A stretch of 34,167 nucleotides of DNA from Sulfurimonas crateris (GTDB taxonomy: Bacteria > Campylobacterota > Campylobacteria > Campylobacterales > Sulfurimonadaceae): the NCBI GenBank assembly GCA_945883795.1, contig CAMCYC010000022.1, positions 1 through 34,167 of the forward strand, in the 5' to 3' direction. The notes beneath the pieces are model-generated. The model saw only the letters and a program-made list of their open reading frames with translations. It did no database searches and was not told where the DNA came from. Positions within the stretch are counted from its first letter, which is position 1, and each line of letters starts with the position of its first letter. Positions 1,965 to 24,300 of this stretch are shown piece after piece. The position numbers and the translations under genes are program-made.

Positions 1965-3010
1965 GCGAATCTTTCTAAAATTTCGTAAGCAGTATTTCTA
2001 ACCGCTGGTATTTCACCTACATCTCGTATAAGATGCACCATCTCCTCTTTTGCCATAGAATAAGCAGCTCCCGCACTGCTTACCACATTTTCTTCCATCA
2101 TCGTTGAACCCAAATCATTCGCTCCAAAATGTAATGCCATTTGTCCAATATAAGGTCCTTGAGTCACCCATGAACTTTGGATATTTGGCACATTATCCAG
2201 ATATAATCTTGCAACTGCCAAAAGTCTTAAATAACGGTTTGATGAGGGTTTTTCCATGTCAGGAATTTGTGCTAAAAGCTCTGTATTTTTACCCTGAAAA
2301 CTCCACATGATAAAAGCTCTAAAGCCACCTGTTTCATCTTGCAATGTTCGTATCATGTCAAAATGTTCTACAATATCTTCATCTTTTTCAACTGTTCCAT
2401 ACATCATGGTTGCGGTTGATTTGATATCAAGTTTATGTGCTTTTCTATGAATATCCACCCAAACTGCTGAATCAATCTTTTTAGGGGCGATTATATCTCG
2501 CACTGCATCAGAGAGAATTTCAGCTCCCGCTCCAGGAATTGAAGCCAAACCTTTTGCTTTGAGGCGAATTAAAACTTCTTCGACACTAATTCGAGAAACT
2601 TTTGCGATAAAATCAATCTCGATAGAGGAAAATCCATGAATAGTAATTTGTGGATATTGAGTATGAATATGCCCAACTAAATCCTCATACCACTCAATTT
2701 TAAGTTTTGGATGCACGCCACCTTGAAATAAGATTTGTGTGCCACCAATTTCTAAAAGTTTATCAATTTTTTTGTCAATCTCTTCAAAGGTTAAAACATA
2801 AGCATCAGCATCTTTTTCATGACGATAAAACGCACAAAACTTACAATCCACCCAACAAATATTGGTGTAATTGATATTGCGGTCAACCACAAAAGTGGTC
2901 ACACTATCGGGATGTAACTCTTTTTTTCTTGCACTCGCTAGGCGACCTAACTCTTTGAGGTCACCATATTTGATAAGAGAAAGTGCTTCCTCTTTTGTTA
3001 ATCGTTTCAT
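1961..3010 (-). CDS. mqnC: Dehypoxanthine futalosine cyclase (radical SAM), menaquinone synthesis
   Basis: 349 residues, full length for MqnC. This radical SAM enzyme cyclises dehypoxanthine futalosine in the futalosine route to menaquinone, which Campylobacterota use instead of the classical Men route. The cluster-binding motif Cx3Cx2C is visible at C52, C56 and C59 (ICWVDCKFC), preceded by the typical VVDRNINYTN. The GGVHP segment and the later radical SAM core also fit. MqnE, the related enzyme, is less likely because the N-terminal context matches MqnC; this is judged by eye. It starts 2 bases after the nusB stop and overlaps the M16-like gene by ATGA, so translation is probably coupled. 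Confidence 0.92.
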   Translation of the reverse strand: MKRLTKEEALSLIKYGDLKELGRLASARKKELHPDSVTTFVVDRNINYTNICWVDCKFCAFYRHEKDADAYVLTFEEIDKKIDKLLEIGGTQILFQGGVHPKLKIEWYEDLVGHIHTQYPQITIHGFSSIEIDFIAKVSRISVEEVLIRLKAKGLASIPGAGAEILSDAVRDIIAPKKIDSAVWVDIHRKAHKLDIKSTATMMYGTVEKDEDIVEHFDMIRTLQDETGGFRAFIMWSFQGKNTELLAQIPDMEKPSSNRYLRLLAVARLYLDNVPNIQSSWVTQGPYIGQMALHFGANDLGSTMMEENVVSSAGAAYSMAKEEMVHLIRDVGEIPAVRNTAYEILERFA

Positions 3011-3012
3011 GA

Positions 3013-3411
3013 TTATTTATCTTTAGAAATTGCGTCAAGCACACCGTTTATAAATTTTGGAGATTGCTCCGTTCCAAACGCTTTTGTAATCTCTACTGCT
3101 TCATTTATTACAACAGCAGAATCAAGCTCACCAAATAAAATTTCATAACATGCAAGTCGTAAAGTAGCTCTCTCAATGCTTCCTAGTCGCTCAAAATCCC
3201 ACTCTTTTAAGTGTTTAATAATTGCAGCATCAACAGGTTCAAGATTTTTCATAACCCCTTCATAGAGTGCCAATGCAAAATCCCGTTGTTTATTACGGAT
3301 TTTTTTCTCTTCCAAAATCTCATCTGTATGTTTTGCAATATTTCCATTGCCTAAATCAAAGGCATATAAAAGGCTAACTACCGCCATTCTGGCTTGTTGT
3401 CTAGTTGCCAT
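3013..3411 (-). CDS. nusB: Transcription antitermination factor NusB
   Basis: 132 residues, normal for NusB. It begins [19 protein letters not shown], the usual arginine-rich first helix, and ends with the conserved KFINGVLDAI segment. NusB pairs with NusE (ribosomal protein S10) to bind boxA RNA in the leaders of rRNA operons and keep polymerase processive. An rRNA-type leader is present at the right end of this window. The ATG shares one base with the ribH stop (TAATG), so the two genes are translationally coupled; ribH-nusB is a widespread pair. Confidence 0.95.
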   Translation of the reverse strand: MATRQQARMAVVSLLYAFDLGNGNIAKHTDEILEEKKIRNKQRDFALALYEGVMKNLEPVDAAIIKHLKEWDFERLGSIERATLRLACYEILFGELDSAVVINEAVEITKAFGTEQSPKFINGVLDAISKDK

Positions 3412-4812: not shown

Positions 4813-5028
4813 ATGAAATCTATATTTACATTTATATTAAAATATTTTGTTATGTTCATTGTAGGGGTTTGGAATTTTCTTTCATTTTTCTTTGGTTTTC
4901 CCTATGAGCAACAAGCAAATAAACTCGACCTTAAAAAAGTAGACCCGTTATTTAGGGGTCCACAAAATGATAAAACGCCACATAAAATTTATCGACCAAA
5001 TAGGGGTAATCCTAAAGTTTACGATTAA
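4813..5028 (+). CDS. Small single-pass membrane protein, unknown function (71 residues)
   Basis: I do not recognise this gene. The start chosen is the ATG at 4813, with AGGG just upstream; a TTG at 4798 is in frame but has no ribosome binding site. The first 30 residues form one strongly hydrophobic, phenylalanine-rich helix. The remaining 40 are hydrophilic, rich in Pro, Lys and Arg, with the ending RPNRGNPKVYD. Topology is uncertain, though a lysine-poor N-terminus suggests an uncleaved anchor. It has its own promoter and is convergent with the next gene, with a gap of 6 bases. A good binding site, a -10 box and an intact frame support it being real. Confidence 0.7.
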   Translation: MKSIFTFILKYFVMFIVGVWNFLSFFFGFPYEQQANKLDLKKVDPLFRGPQNDKTPHKIYRPNRGNPKVYD

Positions 5029-5034
5029 AATAGG

Positions 5035-5292
5035 TTAGCCATTTATCACTTTTGATTTTTCAATTGCTTCTTCTATTTCTTCTTTGAGGATACTTCCACT
5101 TAAAATAATATTGACATCTCCATCTTCTCCAGAGATGTCAATATTTTTTATCTTTTGTTTTGTTTCGTCGCTCATGCACCCACACTTTCCAGTTTGACAG
5201 TTTTGAACCATTTTTACAATATTCTCTTTTCGAACTTCACCTGTAAATGAAATATTTACACCATCTTTTAAACTAAATACTCTTTTTTGCAT
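5035..5292 (-). CDS. Small cysteine-containing protein, unknown function (85 residues)
   Basis: Not recognised. The ATG at 5292 has AAAGG 7 bases upstream; an in-frame GTG immediately before it is the alternative. The central part carries C-Q-T-G-K-C-G-C (about residues 32-39), three cysteines within eight residues that could bind a metal or cluster. The flanks show two similar-looking halves: each has a strand ending in ISFTGEV or IILSGSI followed by a helix with repeated acidic and lysine residues. This suggests an internal duplication of a small strand-helix unit, by eye. No signal peptide, so cytoplasmic. Confidence 0.65.
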   Translation of the reverse strand: MQKRVFSLKDGVNISFTGEVRKENIVKMVQNCQTGKCGCMSDETKQKIKNIDISGEDGDVNIILSGSILKEEIEEAIEKSKVING

Positions 5293-5299
5293 CACTAAA

Positions 5300-5512
5300 C
5301 CTTTACTTTTTTTTGGTTAACACATTTGTAACACTTTCATTATATACTTTCCGTGCGGTTTTCCAGCATAGTCTTAAGATTATGTTCCCATTGTGTAACA
5401 TTGTAATTTTCTTATGTTCGTTCAATATCCTTTTTTTAACCAAAAGGATATATCTCCCTTTGAATATTTTGATAATTTTTTTATTCCACCCCAACTCCTT
5501 GGGTGGAATTAT
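5300..5512. other. 213-base intergenic region with inverted repeats, no convincing gene
   Basis: This gap between the cysteine-containing gene and the EamA gene has short frames on both strands, but none has a ribosome binding site in the right place or recognisable protein sequence. It contains a 10-base inverted repeat, TTTTGGTTAA at 5311-5320 and TTAACCAAAA at 5437-5446, and a perfect 9-base-pair hairpin at 5483-5509. Confidence 0.6.
5483..5509 (-). terminator. Hairpin just after the EamA gene (possible terminator without a U-run)
   Basis: ATTCCACCC at 5483-5491 pairs perfectly with GGGTGGAAT at 5501-5509 around a 9-base loop. It begins 3 bases after the EamA stop codon. On the minus strand it is followed by A residues, not T, so it is not a textbook intrinsic terminator; it may protect the 3' end. 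The loop on the minus strand contains AAGGAG. Confidence 0.4.
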
Positions 5513-6403
5513 TCATTTTGATTGGGCTGCCATAACTCCAGCAAAAACAATTAATACAATTCCAAAAGATGTCATGAGACTTGGTAAAGAATCCCCTAAC
5601 ATAACACCAACAAAAATAGCAAAAAGTATGTTTGTATAACTTACAGCACCTATAATTCCAGCTTTTGTTTCAGCATACGCTTTTGTCATAAGTACTTGAG
5701 AAATCGTGGCAAAAAACCCCATGGCAAGAACATACAACCAAACAATTCCCTTTGGCATAACAAATTCACCTAACATAAAATCAAACTCTGGCATGTGAAT
5801 ATAAGGTGAAAGAAAAAAAAGTACAATCGGTCCAGCCGTCCCAACTCCCATAAAGGAAAGAACTATAGCCCGAGTATCATAAAAATTTTTGAGTTCTCTA
5901 ATGGATGTATATGCCAAAGCTGCACCAATACCGCTAAATATTCCTAAAATATCATATTTACTCAGTCCAATTCCTGTTGGTTGCGTGATAAAAAGTATCC
6001 CGATAAAACCTACAAAAATTGCACTCCACCCTTTAATGGGAAGTTTTTCTTGCAAAAAAAGCCATGCAAAAATGGCAGTAAAAATAGGAGCAGTTTTAGA
6101 ATAAGTCATAGCATCACCTAAAGAGATATGTGCGATATTATAAAAAAATGCCAAAAGTGCAATAAACCCCATAAGACCACGAAATAAAAGAAGCCAAGGT
6201 TTGCCACCAACTTGCACCATCGGTTTTTTAAGCACCGCAATTCCCACTAAAATAACACCTGCAATATTTCTAAAAAATACAACTTCTAGTGAACTCATGT
6301 GTTGGCTTGAGAGTTTTGCAAATGCACCCATAAATGCAAACATAAGTGAAGCAGCAAGCATGTACTGCACACCTTTATTTAATTTTTTTATATTTTTTAT
6401 CAA
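5513..6403 (-). CDS. EamA-family (drug/metabolite superfamily) inner-membrane transporter
   Basis: Up to 296 residues with about ten hydrophobic helices in two repeated halves, the EamA architecture. LASLMFAFMGAFAKLSSQHMSSLEVVFFRN near the start and GDAMTYSKTAPIFTAIFAWLF in the first repeat are typical. The substrate cannot be told; family members export amino acids, nucleotides or drugs. The TTG at 6403 gives the full family-like N-terminus but has no binding site. The ATG at 6361 has AAAGGTG well placed and would give 282 residues, still keeping all helices. It lies 6 bases after the stop of the 456-residue gene, so the two are probably co-transcribed. Confidence 0.85.
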   Translation of the reverse strand: MIKNIKKLNKGVQYMLAASLMFAFMGAFAKLSSQHMSSLEVVFFRNIAGVILVGIAVLKKPMVQVGGKPWLLLFRGLMGFIALLAFFYNIAHISLGDAMTYSKTAPIFTAIFAWLFLQEKLPIKGWSAIFVGFIGILFITQPTGIGLSKYDILGIFSGIGAALAYTSIRELKNFYDTRAIVLSFMGVGTAGPIVLFFLSPYIHMPEFDFMLGEFVMPKGIVWLYVLAMGFFATISQVLMTKAYAETKAGIIGAVSYTNILFAIFVGVMLGDSLPSLMTSFGIVLIVFAGVMAAQSK

Positions 6404-17171: not shown

Positions 17172-18095
17172 GTGAAATTTTTTATGTATATGATAAGTGC
17201 TTTATTTATGCTTTTACATGGAGCTGAATATGAAAATTTAAAAGTTTTAGAATTTAATCGTTTGAGTGACAAAGAAGCGGATGTAATTGTAAGAAAAGCA
17301 ACAGAAAAACCCTTTAGCGGAAAGTATTATAAGTTTAATGAAAATGGTACTTATCTTTGTAAAAGGTGTAATACCCCATTATATAACTCAAATACAAAAT
17401 TTGAGAGTGGGTGTGGTTGGCCTAGTTTTGATGATGCAATCAAAGGAGCAATGAAAAGAATCCTTGATGCTGATGGAAGAAGAGTAGAGATAGTGTGTGC
17501 AAATTGTGGAGCACATTTGGGGCATGTATTTGAAGGGGAGCATTTAACTGCAAAAAACATTCGATATTGTGTCAATTCAATCTCTTTGAAATTTGAACCA
17601 AAGAGCATGGATGAAAATAAAAAAGCTTATTTTGCAGGTGGTTGTTTTTGGGGAGTGGAATATAATCTTGAAAAACTCGATGGTGTTATCTCTGTAGAAT
17701 CAGGTTATATGGGCGGTGCTATGAAAAATCCCTCTTATAGAGATGTATCTCATGGAGATAGTGGGCATTTAGAAACGGTTGAGGTAACTTATAACCCAAA
17801 AAAAGTAAGCTATGAAACTTTGGCAAAATTGTTCTTTGAGATTCACGACCCAACTCAAAATGATGGACAAGGTCCAGATATTGGAGAACAATACCATTCA
17901 GCTATATTTACTTCTGATGAGAAGGAGAAAAAAACGATTTTGAAACTTATCACTATTTTAGAATCCAAGCGGTTACATGTAGCGACAAAGATTTTGGATG
18001 CAACTGAGTTTTATAAGGCGGAAGAGTACCATCAAGATTATTATCAAAGGCATCATAAAGAGCCTTATTGTCATTCGTATGTAAAGAGGTTTTAG
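17172..18095 (+). CDS. msrAB: Exported MsrB-MsrA fusion, peptide methionine sulfoxide reductase
   Basis: 307 residues, starting at GTG 17172 with TAGGA 6 bases upstream. A hydrophobic N-terminus (MKFFMYMISALFMLLHGA) is a signal peptide or anchor, so the enzyme acts in the periplasm. The first domain is MsrB (about 24-145), with zinc cysteines C63, C66, C109 and C112 and the catalytic C133 in RYCVNS. The second is MsrA (about 150-305), with the catalytic C158 in GGCFWG and the EQYHSAIF segment. Together they reduce the R and S forms of methionine sulfoxide in oxidised proteins. The order B then A is the less common one; in Neisseria PilB it is A then B. It overlaps the convergent metalloprotease gene by 3-4 bases. 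Confidence 0.94.
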   Translation: MKFFMYMISALFMLLHGAEYENLKVLEFNRLSDKEADVIVRKATEKPFSGKYYKFNENGTYLCKRCNTPLYNSNTKFESGCGWPSFDDAIKGAMKRILDADGRRVEIVCANCGAHLGHVFEGEHLTAKNIRYCVNSISLKFEPKSMDENKKAYFAGGCFWGVEYNLEKLDGVISVESGYMGGAMKNPSYRDVSHGDSGHLETVEVTYNPKKVSYETLAKLFFEIHDPTQNDGQGPDIGEQYHSAIFTSDEKEKKTILKLITILESKRLHVATKILDATEFYKAEEYHQDYYQRHHKEPYCHSYVKRF

Positions 18096-18733: not shown

Positions 18734-19912
18734 TTAATATAAAACATGCCCCACAAATTTACTCATGTTATCCATAATTTCCCCGCCTTTTCTAAAACTC
18801 ATGCCACACGCTTCATAAGAGAAAAATACTCCTGTTTGGTATTTAACACCTTTTGCATCTTTAGGAAATTCAACATATTCTTGATAGATTTTTTTGTAGT
18901 TTTCATAAGGTCCATCAATATGTTCTAAAATACTTCCATCTTTATCAATAATTTTAGTGTTTGCACCTTCTCTTCCAAAAACACTCTTTTCTACATGTTT
19001 TATTCCTTTGAGTGGCTCATAAGAAGTTTTTAAAAGATAGGGAGAATCAGGGAAAAGGTCACATAAAATTTTCATCATCCCTTTTGATTGAAACAAAAGA
19101 GTATATGCTGGATTGAGAATGATAGCTTTTTGATTTTGCATAATATTCGTAAGAGTAGTTGCAAGTTCAGGCTCATCTGTGGCTATATCTTCCCATGGGA
19201 AAAGTTTAAACCAGTATTCATATTCATAACCCTCTGCATCTGCAATCCCATTTTCATCAAATTGCACATTTTGTAAATACTCAAATCCTGTTTCAAATCC
19301 TGCATCAGCTGCCATTTGTTGTAGAAGCCTTGTTGTTGCTTCTTCTTCCTCATTTCCAGCCATGGAAGAAAAAAGAATTTTCCATCCATCATAGCGTTCA
19401 TCAAAGAGTTCTGTATCATCAAAAAGGGTGATAAGTCTTTTAAAATTATCACTAATTGCTTCGTAAATATTATTAAATTGTCGCTCTTCATCCATGTTGT
19501 TTTCTTTGAGTAAAGCCCATTGAAGTAGGGTAGTTTCAAAAAGTGAGGTTGGAGTGTCTGCATTAAATTCTATCAGTTTAATTGGTTTACCATCAATTCC
19601 ACCAGCTAAATCAAAACGGCTGTAAATATGCCAATGCACATCACTTTCCCAACTTTTTTTGATTGTTTCAATAAGATTAAAAGGGATTCCTAAATCAAAA
19701 AAAAGGTTATTATCTATTACATGTTGAGCTGCTTCAACAAACATCTCATATATCTCATTAACAGCTTCATAATAAGCTTCCGCTTCTTGGTCAGAGACTT
19801 CAACTAACTCATCACTTACATATTTAGTTCCATCACTATCTGTATGCCATGTAAAACCCAATTCATTTAATATATCATCATTCAGTGGATTTACTTTTTT
19901 TAACTTAACCAT
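18734..19912 (-). CDS. Glutathionylspermidine synthase-like ATP-grasp ligase (YgiC/YjfC type)
   Basis: 392 residues, matching the single-domain YgiC/YjfC proteins, without the amidase domain of E. coli Gss. The family forms an amide bond between a carboxylate and an amine using ATP. Recognisable stretches include VHWHIYSRFDLAGG, KLIEFNADTPTSLFET (ATP/magnesium site) and KPLKG-like PYLLKTSYEPLKGI, VEKSVFGREGANTKII and the C-terminal SYEACGMSFRKGG. The true substrate of these stand-alone enzymes is not established. The start ATG is 7 bases from GGAGGT, which is made by the last two Gly codons of the lipoprotein gene upstream. The same pairing of a lipoprotein with this ligase is seen in E. coli (ygiB-ygiC) and in Campylobacter. 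Confidence 0.9.
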   Translation of the reverse strand: MVKLKKVNPLNDDILNELGFTWHTDSDGTKYVSDELVEVSDQEAEAYYEAVNEIYEMFVEAAQHVIDNNLFFDLGIPFNLIETIKKSWESDVHWHIYSRFDLAGGIDGKPIKLIEFNADTPTSLFETTLLQWALLKENNMDEERQFNNIYEAISDNFKRLITLFDDTELFDERYDGWKILFSSMAGNEEEEATTRLLQQMAADAGFETGFEYLQNVQFDENGIADAEGYEYEYWFKLFPWEDIATDEPELATTLTNIMQNQKAIILNPAYTLLFQSKGMMKILCDLFPDSPYLLKTSYEPLKGIKHVEKSVFGREGANTKIIDKDGSILEHIDGPYENYKKIYQEYVEFPKDAKGVKYQTGVFFSYEACGMSFRKGGEIMDNMSKFVGHVLY

Positions 19913-19914
19913 TA

Positions 19915-20487
19915 TTAACCTCCATAACTTGTTGTATTTGTTGTTGTACTTGTTTTTGTGGGACTATTAAAAAAACTTTTTTTTGTTGAACTTTCTGAAG
20001 TTGTTGGTTTTGTACCAGATGAACGGTTATATACACTTTGATTTGTTGTAGCAGAGTTTCTTGAAAAGCTTTTATTATTCATAAGTGCATTGCCTATCAT
20101 GTTCCCAAGGAGTGAGCCAGCAGCTACTGCTAAAATAGTTCCAGCGAGTCCCATTCCAGCATCTGCACCACCATTTTGAACTGTTTCAGAGGTACCATTT
20201 TGAACTTTTTGATACTCTTGGTCTGCAAGAGTTTTCATCTCCTCTTCGCTCATAACTCGTTCAGTTACATTCCCATTTGCATCTTTTTCACGGATAATAG
20301 CTCGGTTAGGACCTTCAGTTGGTGTTTTTTCAACAACTGTATATTTTCCATTTGTGAGTTGTTCTATGACTAAAAAATAATTTTGTTGTTTCTCTTGTGG
20401 TGCTTCACAACCACTGAGTATGTTCATCATGATAATTCCAGCACTTCCAAGTGCAACGCCACTAGCCAAAGACGATATATGTTTCAT
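19915..20487 (-). CDS. UPF0323-family lipoprotein
   Basis: 190 residues. The signal peptide ends in a lipobox, NILSGC, with the lipidated cysteine at C27. Residues 35-95 are charged and mixed, then a glycine/alanine-rich hydrophobic segment (about 108-133, GLAGTILAVAAGSLLGNMIG) follows, like a small glycine-zipper helix. The last 50 residues are Ser/Thr/Asn-rich and flexible, ending SYGG. This matches the UPF0323 lipoproteins of Campylobacter and Helicobacter, whose function is unknown. Start ATG has AAGGA upstream and overlaps the previous stop by ATGA; the ligase gene follows after 2 bases. Confidence 0.88.
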   Translation of the reverse strand: MKHISSLASGVALGSAGIIMMNILSGCEAPQEKQQNYFLVIEQLTNGKYTVVEKTPTEGPNRAIIREKDANGNVTERVMSEEEMKTLADQEYQKVQNGTSETVQNGGADAGMGLAGTILAVAAGSLLGNMIGNALMNNKSFSRNSATTNQSVYNRSSGTKPTTSESSTKKSFFNSPTKTSTTTNTTSYGG

Positions 20488-20927
20488 GGTCTTAAATCCT
20501 TTTTGTTGAGTGAAATAACTTTGCGAAGTTTATAATCATAGAAGATTATTTTTTCCCTTCCATTATAATATATGTCACCAGTAAATTTATGTTTATTTTC
20601 TTTGAGAGTTATATTTTTAGTCATAAATATCATCTCACCAAGAGCATAACCAATAGGTTGTATAAGTGTTGATAATGATGCTAAAAAGAATATAACAATT
20701 ATAGTTATGCTTATTTTATTATTGTGAGTATAAATTGTTAAATACCCTATAATAAAACTTAGAAGTAGATAAATAAATATATTTTGGTTGTCAGCAAATA
20801 GAATATTATAATAAATATCTATCTCATAAAAATCTATATAATGAAGCTTTAGTCCCAAAAAGACAAAAAAATCTAAAAAAAAAGTGAAGAAGATACCACT
20901 TAAAAAAGCTTGTACAATCTTACTCAT
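20484..20927 (-). CDS. Small inner-membrane protein, unknown function (147 residues)
   Basis: Not recognised. Three hydrophobic helices are visible: about 5-27, 50-66 and 72-98. The C-terminal 45 residues are hydrophilic and lysine-rich with several tyrosines (GDIYYNGREKIIFYDYKLRK) and would form a small soluble tail with strand character. AAGGAG lies 8 bases before the ATG. The gene overlaps both neighbours by ATGA (the Sua5-like gene before, the lipoprotein gene after), so it belongs to the carB operon. Its composition is richer in A and T than its neighbours, as expected for membrane helices. Confidence 0.75.
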   Translation of the reverse strand: MSKIVQAFLSGIFFTFFLDFFVFLGLKLHYIDFYEIDIYYNILFADNQNIFIYLLLSFIIGYLTIYTHNNKISITIIVIFFLASLSTLIQPIGYALGEMIFMTKNITLKENKHKFTGDIYYNGREKIIFYDYKLRKVISLNKKDLRP

Positions 20928-21355
20928 CGTATTTTTCTCCTTTTTATATTATTTATTTTATAAAGATGAGATGAACTTTTTTCATGAAGTCCATTTTTAT
21001 CTTCTATTATTATATCCGCTTTATCCTCACAGAAATCTCTCTGGAAATGTTTATTTGATTCATTTGCCGATGTTGAATAATACCATGTTTGCTCTGTAAA
21101 AATAGAGGCGTTCAAAGTTGTAGGAGTAATTCTAAATGCTTTATTTTTTACGATAAATGTTGTCTTTTTACTATGACGGATTGTGGATTTAAAAGTAGGT
21201 GGGACTCTATTGCCAGAGGCTAAAAAAGTTTTAAAACTACTGTAAACCTTTAAAAAAGGTTTTGTAGTTTGGCGAGATTTTATCTCGTAAAGTTTGTTTG
21301 CATCTTGCGATAAAAAACCGACTGTTGTGTCGGTCTGCATCAAAATAATAGGCAC
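20924..21355 (-). CDS. Short Sua5/YciO/YrdC-domain protein
   Basis: 143 residues from the GTG at 21355, 2 bases after the carB stop; the frame stays open upstream into carB, but those residues are not family-like. Recognisable are QTDTTVGFLSQD (residues 6-17) near the start, the KSRQTTKP nucleotide-binding stretch and TSANESN (about 99-105), the counterpart of the TSANxSG motif. Full TsaC/Sua5 proteins make threonylcarbamoyl-AMP for tRNA t6A and are about 190 residues or more. This one is shorter, with the middle PGPxT region unclear, so it may be a divergent paralogue. Campylobacter jejuni has a similar gene directly after carB. No strong Shine-Dalgarno is seen. Confidence 0.8.
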   Translation of the reverse strand: MPIILMQTDTTVGFLSQDANKLYEIKSRQTTKPFLKVYSSFKTFLASGNRVPPTFKSTIRHSKKTTFIVKNKAFRITPTTLNASIFTEQTWYYSTSANESNKHFQRDFCEDKADIIIEDKNGLHEKSSSHLYKINNIKRRKIR

Positions 21356-21357
21356 TT

Positions 21358-24300
21358 TTACGCTAGAAAATCTTGGAGTGCATGTACATCTGACCATGAA
21401 TCATTTTTCATCTCTTGAAGTGCTAAAATAAGAGCTCTTGCAGCACTAAGTGTTGTGAAATATGGGATATTTTTCTTTAAGACTTCATGACGAATAACGA
21501 TTGCATCTTTTTTCGATGTGTTGTTATCGGAAGTGTTTATCGCCATTTGAATCTCATTATTTTTCATGCTATCTTCAATATTTGGGCGACCTTCCGAAAT
21601 TTTTAGCACAGCTTCACATGGAATTCCTGCTTCTTCTATAGCTTTTTGTGTTCCTTTGGTTGCAACAAGTTTAAATCCATGTGCATGAAGTCCTTTTGCA
21701 ATTTCTGGTGCATGGATTTTATCTGTATCTACAAAAGATAAAAAACAAGTACCACTTTGTGGGATTTTATTGCCAGCTGCAAGTTGTGCTTTTGCAAAAG
21801 AGATACCAAAGTTTGAGCTTATTCCCATAACTTCACCTGTCGATTTCATCTCAGGTCCTAGTACTAAGTCTGCACCATAGAGTTTATGGAATGGAAAAAC
21901 AGCTTCTTTTACAGATACATGGTCACGAAGAAGTGGTTTTAAAAGACCATTTTCTTCTGTCACAATATTATAATTATCATAATATTTCAAAGAATCTCTA
22001 AGAGTTTCTCCAATCATAACACGAGTGGCAACTTTTGCTAAAGGCATGCCAGTTGCTTTACTTACAAAAGGAACAGTTCTACTTGCACGAGGATTGACTT
22101 CTATAAGATAAATCTCTTGTTGATAAATTGCATATTGAACATTCATAAGTCCTATAACGCCTAAACCAAGGGCTATCGTTTTTGTTTGTTGCTCAACTTT
22201 GGCAATAATTTCTTTTGAAAGATTCACAGGAGGCAGTGAACATGCACTATCTCCTGAATGGATTCCAGCTTCTTCAATATGTTGCATAACAGAGCCGATA
22301 TAAACATCTACTCCATCACAAATTGCATCAACATCAAGCTCAATTGCTTGGTCTAAAAATTTGTCTATAAGAACTGGAGCGTTATGTGAAACAGATACAG
22401 CGACATCCATATATTGTTTGAGCTCATCTTCGCTATAAACAATCCTCATTCCACGACCGCCAAGAACAAAAGATGGGCGTACAAGTACTGGATAGCCTAA
22501 CTCTTCAGCAATTTTATAAGATTCCTCTTTTTTTCTTGCAAGTCCATTTCGTGGTTGTTTAAGTCCATTTCTTATAACAAAATTCGAAAATTGTTCTCTA
22601 TCTTCTGCAAGGTCGATAACTGCGGAAGATGTTCCGATAATTTTTGCGCCTATTTTTGTAAGTGAATCTGCAAGTTTAAGCGGAGTTTGCCCACCAAAGT
22701 GAACAATAATTCCATCTGGTTGCTCATTTTCTATCACTGCTCTTACATGTTCAAAATCGATAGGTTCGAAATAAAGAACATCAGAAGTATCATAATCAGT
22801 TGAAACAGTTTCAGGATTACAGTTATACATGATTGTCTCAATATCCATCTCTTTGAGTGCAAATGCTGCATGGACACAACAATAATCAAACTCAATCCCT
22901 TGCCCAATTCTGTTTGGTCCACCACCGAGAATAAGAACTTTTTTCTTTTCACTTATACGGTTTTTGACATTTGGAAGTTTCGTGATGTTTGTTGTAGAAT
23001 ATAAATAGGGTGTGAGTGCTTCAAACTCTGCAGCACATGTATCAACTTCGTTATACTCTACAGTGACATTTAACTCTTTTCTTTTTTTGTAAACTTCATC
23101 TTCAGTTACATTTTCGTTTGAATTTTTGGCAATAAGTTGAGAGATTCTTTTGTCTGAAAAACCATCAACTTTTATACTTCTCATAAATTCTGCATTCAAT
23201 AAAATTTTATCAGTGATTGTACTTTCAGCTCTGATTAATTCCTCTATTTGATATAAAAACCAAGGGTCAATTTTACATGTATCAAACATCTCTTCAACGC
23301 TCATGCCACGGCGGAAACCCTCTGCCACATAAAGCATTCTATCTGCATTTGGACGGCGAATTTCATGTTTTACAAATTCTGTATCAGCTATTATTTCATC
23401 AAAACCACAAAGTCCAGTTTCGAGTGAACAAAGTGCTTTTTGCATAGATTCCTTAAAAGTGCGTCCAATTGCCATAACTTCACCAACAGATTTCATACTT
23501 GTGCTTAACGTATTTTCAGCTTCTGGGAATTTTTCAAAGGTAAAACGGGGTATTTTTGTAACAATATAATCAATTACTGGCTCAAAAGAGGCGGGTGTTC
23601 CTGTGATGTCGTTTGTAATTTCATCAAGTGTAAATCCAACTGCTAAAAGTGTTGCAACTTTAGCGATTGGATAACCAGTTGCTTTACTTGCAAGTGCAGA
23701 TGAACGGCTTACACGAGGATTCATCTCAATAACAATCATTCTTCCTGTTTTTGGGTCAATTGAAAACTGTACATTACTGCCACCAGTATCTACGCCAACT
23801 TCTCTTAAAATATCAAAAGAGGCATTACGCATTCTTTGGTATTCTTTGTCTGTGAGAGTAAGTGCTGGTGCTATTGTGATGCTATCTCCAGTATGCACAC
23901 CCATAGGGTCAAAATTTTCAATAGAACAAACAATAATACAGTTATCTGCTTTGTCACGGATAACTTCCATCTCGTACTCTTTCCAACCAAGGAGAGATTC
24001 TTCGATAAGTATTTCATTTACAGGAGATTCATCTAATCCACGCTCTGCGAGTTTTTTAAATTCATCCATGTTATATGCTACACCACTTCCACCACCTGCA
24101 AGTGTAAAAGAGGCTCTAATAATGATAGGAAATCCGATTGTATTTGCAGCGTTGAGAGCATCATCCATATTGTATGCATATTGAGAGTAGGGTAAATCCA
24201 TGCCTATTTTTATCATGGCATCTTTAAATGCGGAACGGTCTTCCCCTTTGTGGATAGCTTGTGGGGATGCACCTAAAAATTCGATACCCTCAAGCATCCC

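Follow-up and report, generated by a model that had tools for sequence, protein, structure and literature searches.

The window analyzed here is a stretch of 34,167 nucleotides from Sulfurimonas crateris, in which a lipoprotein gene is followed on the minus strand by the gene of an ATP-grasp ligase, both where the first-pass annotation had placed them. The features that matter for the argument are the following, with positions given on the window.

19915..20487, minus strand: lipoprotein gene, 190 aa, PRK04081/UPF0323-like, the proposed substrate (ORF and translation)
18734..19912, minus strand: ligase gene, 392 aa, standalone GSP_synth ATP-grasp ligase (PF03738)
20407..20409, minus strand: codon of the lipobox Cys27 (LSGC), invariant in 48 orthologues (sequence reading)
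20200..20382, minus strand: small folded acidic domain, residues 36-96 (AlphaFold2 model)
20104..20160, minus strand: Gly-rich hydrophobic segment AGMGLAGTILAVAAGSLLG, residues 110-128 (hydropathy, conservation)
19918..20103, minus strand: disordered basic Ser/Thr/Asn-rich tail, residues 129-190 (low pLDDT, composition)
19966..19983, minus strand: KKSFFN, internal tail motif and candidate ligase recognition site (F172 and F173 nearly invariant)
19918..19923, minus strand: C-terminal Gly189-Gly190 (GGA GGT), proposed amidation site (G189 at least 90% conserved)
19919..19923, minus strand: GGAGG, Shine-Dalgarno of the ligase gene, overlapping the Gly codons (sequence reading)

The last lipoprotein codons read TAT GGA GGT TAA, and 2 nt (TA) separate this stop from the ligase ATG (19912). 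Just upstream lie a 157-aa ORF (20924-21397), which overlaps the end of carB and matches Sua5/YciO/YrdC weakly (23.0 bits, below the cut-off of 25.1), and then a putative membrane protein of 147 aa (20484-20927), which shares 4 nt with the beginning of the lipoprotein gene. An SprA-related gene (PF12118; 18092-18706) follows the ligase on the same strand, and an MsrA/MsrB-like fusion gene (17172-18095) is in convergent orientation.

PF03738 (GSP_synth) matches residues 13-390 of the 392 residues of the ligase with 400.6 bits (cut-off 29.3), and the protein is without an amidase domain. Its nearest solved relatives by sequence are E. coli YgiC (7uk8) and YjfC (7uk6), to which it shows full-length homology with identical catalytic residues, and its model (pLDDT 92) reaches a TM of 0.86 to YjfC 7uk6; the initial identification as a YgiC/YjfC-type ATP-grasp ligase is thus upheld by domain, sequence and fold. 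Nine positions (R316, D318, E330, N332, E391, K498, K533, R538 and R598 in the numbering of E. coli GspSA) are invariant from GspSA through YgiC, YjfC and the window ligase to the phage homologues. We take these nine to be catalytic or substrate-binding, and E391 to be at the polyamine site. The ATP-grasp fold and the invariant catalytic residues are likewise shared with trypanothione synthetase, which, as GspSA, joins the C-terminal glycine carboxylate of glutathione to a polyamine. The window protein is nevertheless no GspSA, since it lacks the fused N-terminal CHAP-type amidase and scores 99.8 bits against PRK10507 (cut-off 882) with its 392 aa. It is the sole PF03738 gene in the S. crateris genome. 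Elsewhere, one genome (G015) has two PF03738 matches (contigs C81 and C79), one of them distant from any lipoprotein, and another carries a decayed ligase fragment with a stop (G016:C11:119757-119996). NCBI RefSeq names YgiC and YjfC peptide--spermidine ligase, and this activity is reported for these two enzymes only, by Pederick 2023 as cited in PMC12568646; for the window ligase it is predicted by analogy. According to Sui 2012, as cited in PMC12506659, the E. coli homologues do not make glutathionylspermidine. No natural substrate of YgiC or YjfC was found in the literature searched. That these ATP-grasp genes act in amide ligation was reportedly predicted by Iyer and colleagues (2009), and priority for the idea of the lipoprotein as substrate is uncertain.

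The partner protein has a signal peptide and the lipobox cysteine C27 (LSGC) noticed at first pass, invariant across the 48 orthologues, so that it corresponds to a bacterial lipoprotein whose lipidation is predicted. The name UPF0323 given to it holds approximately only, as the best NCBIfam model, PRK04081 ('hypothetical protein'), reaches 149.8 bits, below the cut-off of 194; a Pfam search of the lipoprotein returned nothing above cut-off, and PF06693 (DUF1190) had no match in it. Its tail is nonetheless in the style of DUF1190 proteins, with an internal aromatic-Gly motif and small C-terminal residues (KKSFFN, then SYGG). The modeled block of residues 36-96 has four strands and a helix at a pLDDT of about 67-84, and a fold search with this low-confidence lipoprotein model gave no match. 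The segment AGMGLAGTILAVAAGSLLG has a hydropathy of 1.65 over 19 residues, with G111, G124, G128 and G132 conserved in and after it, and the net charge is -6 before and +6 after it. The tail itself (residues 129-190, net charge +6) contains a single acidic residue and ends in TTNTTSYGG. Among 163 partner lipoproteins, 85 from Campylobacterota and 78 of DUF1190 type from other Proteobacteria, the median charges are -7 before the hydrophobic segment and +7 after it, and tails are positive in 85/85 and 77/78, respectively. This acidic-then-basic design suggests that tail charge is important, perhaps for touching anionic lipids or polymers of the envelope. The median hydropathy of the segment is marginal in Campylobacterota (1.43) and low in DUF1190 proteins (0.67); a membrane-spanning segment that would leave the tail cytoplasmic is therefore possible for UPF0323 and weakly supported for DUF1190.

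The same pairing had been proposed for E. coli ygiB-ygiC, and this is confirmed by matching gene order and spacing. Indeed, both YgiB-YgiC and YjfM-YjfC resemble the window pair in order, spacing, lipobox, acidic front, basic Ser/Gly-rich tail with an internal motif, and terminal GG. The first-pass annotation was correct in stating that YgiB ends in Gly-Gly (SRSMGG), and YjfM does so too (GHWGG). The motif of the E. coli tails is RGGFG, whereas the window tail carries KSFF/KSGFF, and the yjf operon contains genes for PspA, DUF350 and DUF2491, which the window operon lacks. Moreover, profile comparison of the UPF0323-like bodies with the DUF1190 bodies, YgiB and YjfM included, detected no homology beyond the signal peptide, and common descent of the lipoprotein bodies was rejected for want of any signal outside it.

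The C-terminal ending is what these proteins have in common. GG is the ending of 125 of the 163 partners, and 162 of them terminate in Gly, Ser or Ala; since the sequences share descent, these counts are not independent trials and the argument rests on the spread over families, phyla and phages. In the sole exception (L066) the ORF has suffered a frameshift, and its +1 frame runs to SGFFGG. None of 809 other neighboring ORFs of the same loci ends in GG, this background being 812 ORFs minus three raw GG matches, namely YgiB, YjfM and a Bradyrhizobium partner (SRGGFG, GGG); the ending is thus not due to chance. Within Campylobacterota, 52 of the 85 partners end in GG and 74 in G[GSA]. The Gly-Gly ending on which the first-pass annotation had built is thus the majority state but not a strict rule: a genus resembling Campylobacter has GS, some alphaproteobacteria have SSS, and in a Helicobacter-like clade (genus g17; L016, L018, L023, L024, L029, L094-L098) the penultimate Gly is replaced and the proteins end in xIS, FNS or FNA with the ligase still adjacent. 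G[GSA] describes the rule, with a clade-specific loss. Given that GS is common and that Gly-Gly was lost in one clade, either Ser, and perhaps further terminal residues, must be acceptable to the enzyme, or the enzyme changed in that clade. In genus g17 four ligase positions (window 61, 78, 282 and 286) are fixed differently; as these changes are confined to one clade, they are not independent evidence.

A caution raised from the start was that the two Gly codons also form the Shine-Dalgarno of the ligase gene, so that GGA GGT might be kept for translation of the ligase while the protein ending is without function. The overlap is real: GGAGG at 19919-19923 is well spaced from the ligase ATG, and the same letters are found in 22 of 38 GG cases among short-gap Campylobacterota. 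As a general cause of Gly-Gly, selection on the RNA is refuted by the other arrangements. GG is about equally common far from the ligase (17/24) and near it (108/139, all loci), and only 36 of the 108 near GG cases contain GGAGG. In short-gap Pseudomonadota this drops to 14 of 70, GGC and GGT dominating with Gly-Gly retained. The first-pass annotation had named loss of Gly-Gly in orthologues with the ligase gene elsewhere as refuting its own reading; in the nine unlinked Campylobacterota genomes the lipoproteins end in GG (4), GS (4) or GA (1). The Sulfitobacter partner follows the ligase and ends in RGFGG, a Labrenzia and one more proteobacterial genome encode theirs on the other strand with SRGG or RGYGG, and in phages whole genes intervene between the two. 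Because the ending is kept when unlinked, reversed, placed on the opposite strand or written with other codons, the Shine-Dalgarno overlap does not explain it, and we give a purely translational role of these codons hardly any weight. It may still bias codon choice locally.

The two genes also come and go together. Among 150 Campylobacterota genomes, the ligase is present in 134 and the lipoprotein in 134, both being missing from the same 16, and the lipoprotein lies apart from the ligase in at least nine. That the pairing is kept despite gene separation indicates that the functional pairing is stronger than the positional one. The gene nspC of the spermidine/norspermidine pathway, present in S. 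crateris, is found in 150/150 of these genomes, including the 16 without the pair; polyamine supply was thus rejected as the cause of the absences, since the losses are not explained by absent polyamine synthesis. Two variants of the layout were observed: in genome G113, two tandem lipoproteins, both ending in FGG, precede one ligase (L093:1715-2332 and 2414-3037), and in three genomes of family f8 (L068, L069, L070) a short possible ORF lies inside a lipoprotein-ligase gap of about 100 nt.

GspSA acts on glutathione and its product is a soluble conjugate, which makes GspSA genes a natural negative control. Of 120 Pseudomonadota genomes sampled evenly, 22 had PF03738. For all 19 standalone ligases of this sample, a partner with the tail was encoded no more than about 5 kb away (15 GG, 3 GS, 1 SS), in contrast to the fused amidase-synthetase genes, whose 1.5-kb flanks held a tailed partner in 0/5 cases. 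A small lipoprotein near the ligase was likewise found in 10/10 phage loci (GG 8, AG 1, GS 1), most of them with one or two genes in between. In Achromobacter phage Motura (L200:4575-4955, 4962-6089), homospermidine synthase and the ligase directly flank a lipoprotein gene whose product ends in RGGFGSTGSSFSAGG (FSAGG), a gene for a DUF350-like protein comes next after the ligase, and the locus might be read from its gene content as a compact phage polyamination cassette. For this phage, the adjacency of homospermidine synthase and the ligase homologue has led to the suggestion of glutathionylhomospermidine (PMC9992855). Together with the soluble product of GspSA, that proposal would fit a scheme without a covalent link, in which the ligase makes a soluble peptide-polyamine that the lipoprotein binds or senses. 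We regard this as quite improbable: that proteins with unrelated bodies all keep a small terminal residue would be expected if this end is a substrate, not if they are binding partners, and the GspSA-type enzymes are without such partners.

Besides the ending, the tails have a motif further inside in common. In Campylobacterota, 84/85 tails contain K[KS]S(G)FF, where shuffling gives 4.6, and 78/78 of the other, DUF1190-type tails contain RGGFG, where shuffling gives 0.1, at a median distance to the end of 16 residues in the former and 23 in the latter. From its conservation, the KSGFF/RGGFG motif is likely to be the site that the ligase recognizes. The tail is moreover kept on proteins without significant Pfam match, in Deinococcus (...LSSGG), Pseudarthrobacter (...GSGS), Virgibacillus (...GASS), Bacillus phage FADO (...SGFGG), a faecal contig (...SRSFGA) and Bradyrhizobium (...FGFGGG). 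The pair as first described therefore stands, while the system turns out wider than UPF0323 and YgiB. Short partners of 128-141 aa with similar tails were seen in Bradyrhizobium (L177:3214-3624) and in two other Pseudomonadota (L211:996-1382, L235:1707-2132). As the Bradyrhizobium partner has an N-terminal membrane anchor without clear lipobox, the system may be able to work without lipidation.

Taken together, our results favor the reading, to which we assign a probability of roughly 0.74, that the pair consists of a substrate and its modifying enzyme, the C-terminus of the tail being amidated by a polyamine, most likely spermidine. Attachment of an amine to the lipoprotein C-terminus, as suggested by the first-pass annotation, is supported in our comparative tests by co-occurrence, by the endings and by their independence of gene arrangement. 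Its suggestion of a polyamine finds support in the published activity of YgiC and YjfC and in the homospermidine synthase of phage Motura. Other acceptors are conceivable, namely an amino acid, an amine of the envelope or a lysine side chain on a second protein, with the lipoprotein as tag or tether. PF03738 and glutathione-synthetase-like ATP-grasp enzymes do take varied amines, and nspC, present in all genomes, does not discriminate. Such a non-polyamine acceptor is nevertheless unlikely, given that the closest characterized relatives use spermidine, that polyamine genes adjoin homologues in the phage and in the operons of PMC11237479, where PspA, DUF350, an ion channel and DUF1190 accompany this ligase type, and that the position of GspSA E391 is invariant.

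Under polyamine amidation, the cytoplasmic ligase would recognize the basic tail, probably via KSGFF/RGGFG and the small terminal residues, and would use ATP to phosphorylate the C-terminal carboxylate, which would then be coupled to a primary amine of the polyamine, most likely spermidine, with a predicted adduct of +127.147 Da. The tail would thereby lose its terminal negative charge and gain a polycation, whose purpose might be a role of the cationic tail in the envelope. How a cytoplasmic ligase could meet an exported lipoprotein is most simply explained if the modification precedes Sec export. We thus infer the lipoprotein to be the substrate in the cell, a polyamine the amine, the modification to occur before or during export and its purpose to lie in the envelope.

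Polyamine chemistry on the Gly-Gly end of a protein has a precedent, since eukaryotic SUMO and ubiquitin, with their LGG ends, are joined C-terminally to spermidine (PMC12270671). The likeness lies in the Gly-Gly protein end and in the linkage of the C-terminal carboxylate to spermidine; the eukaryotic route differs in that it goes through E1/E2 via adenylate and thioester, without ATP-grasp ligase, on a ubiquitin-fold modifier and not on a lipoprotein.

To conclude, we consider it fairly probable that a widespread system of bacteria and phages polyaminates the C-termini of exported proteins, in which a modular tail (RGGFG/KSGFF plus terminal G[GSA]) would act as an address tag on unrelated lipoproteins or membrane-anchored bodies, and in which standalone GSP_synth proteins would be dedicated protein polyamine ligases rather than relatives of glutathione enzymes with lost function. 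By the tail motif, candidate substrates can be named for hundreds of species, among them YgiB and YjfM of E. coli K-12. If true, bacteria and phages would possess a dedicated envelope pathway of protein C-terminal polyamination, as a bacterial counterpart of the SUMO-spermidine conjugates that were discovered recently.
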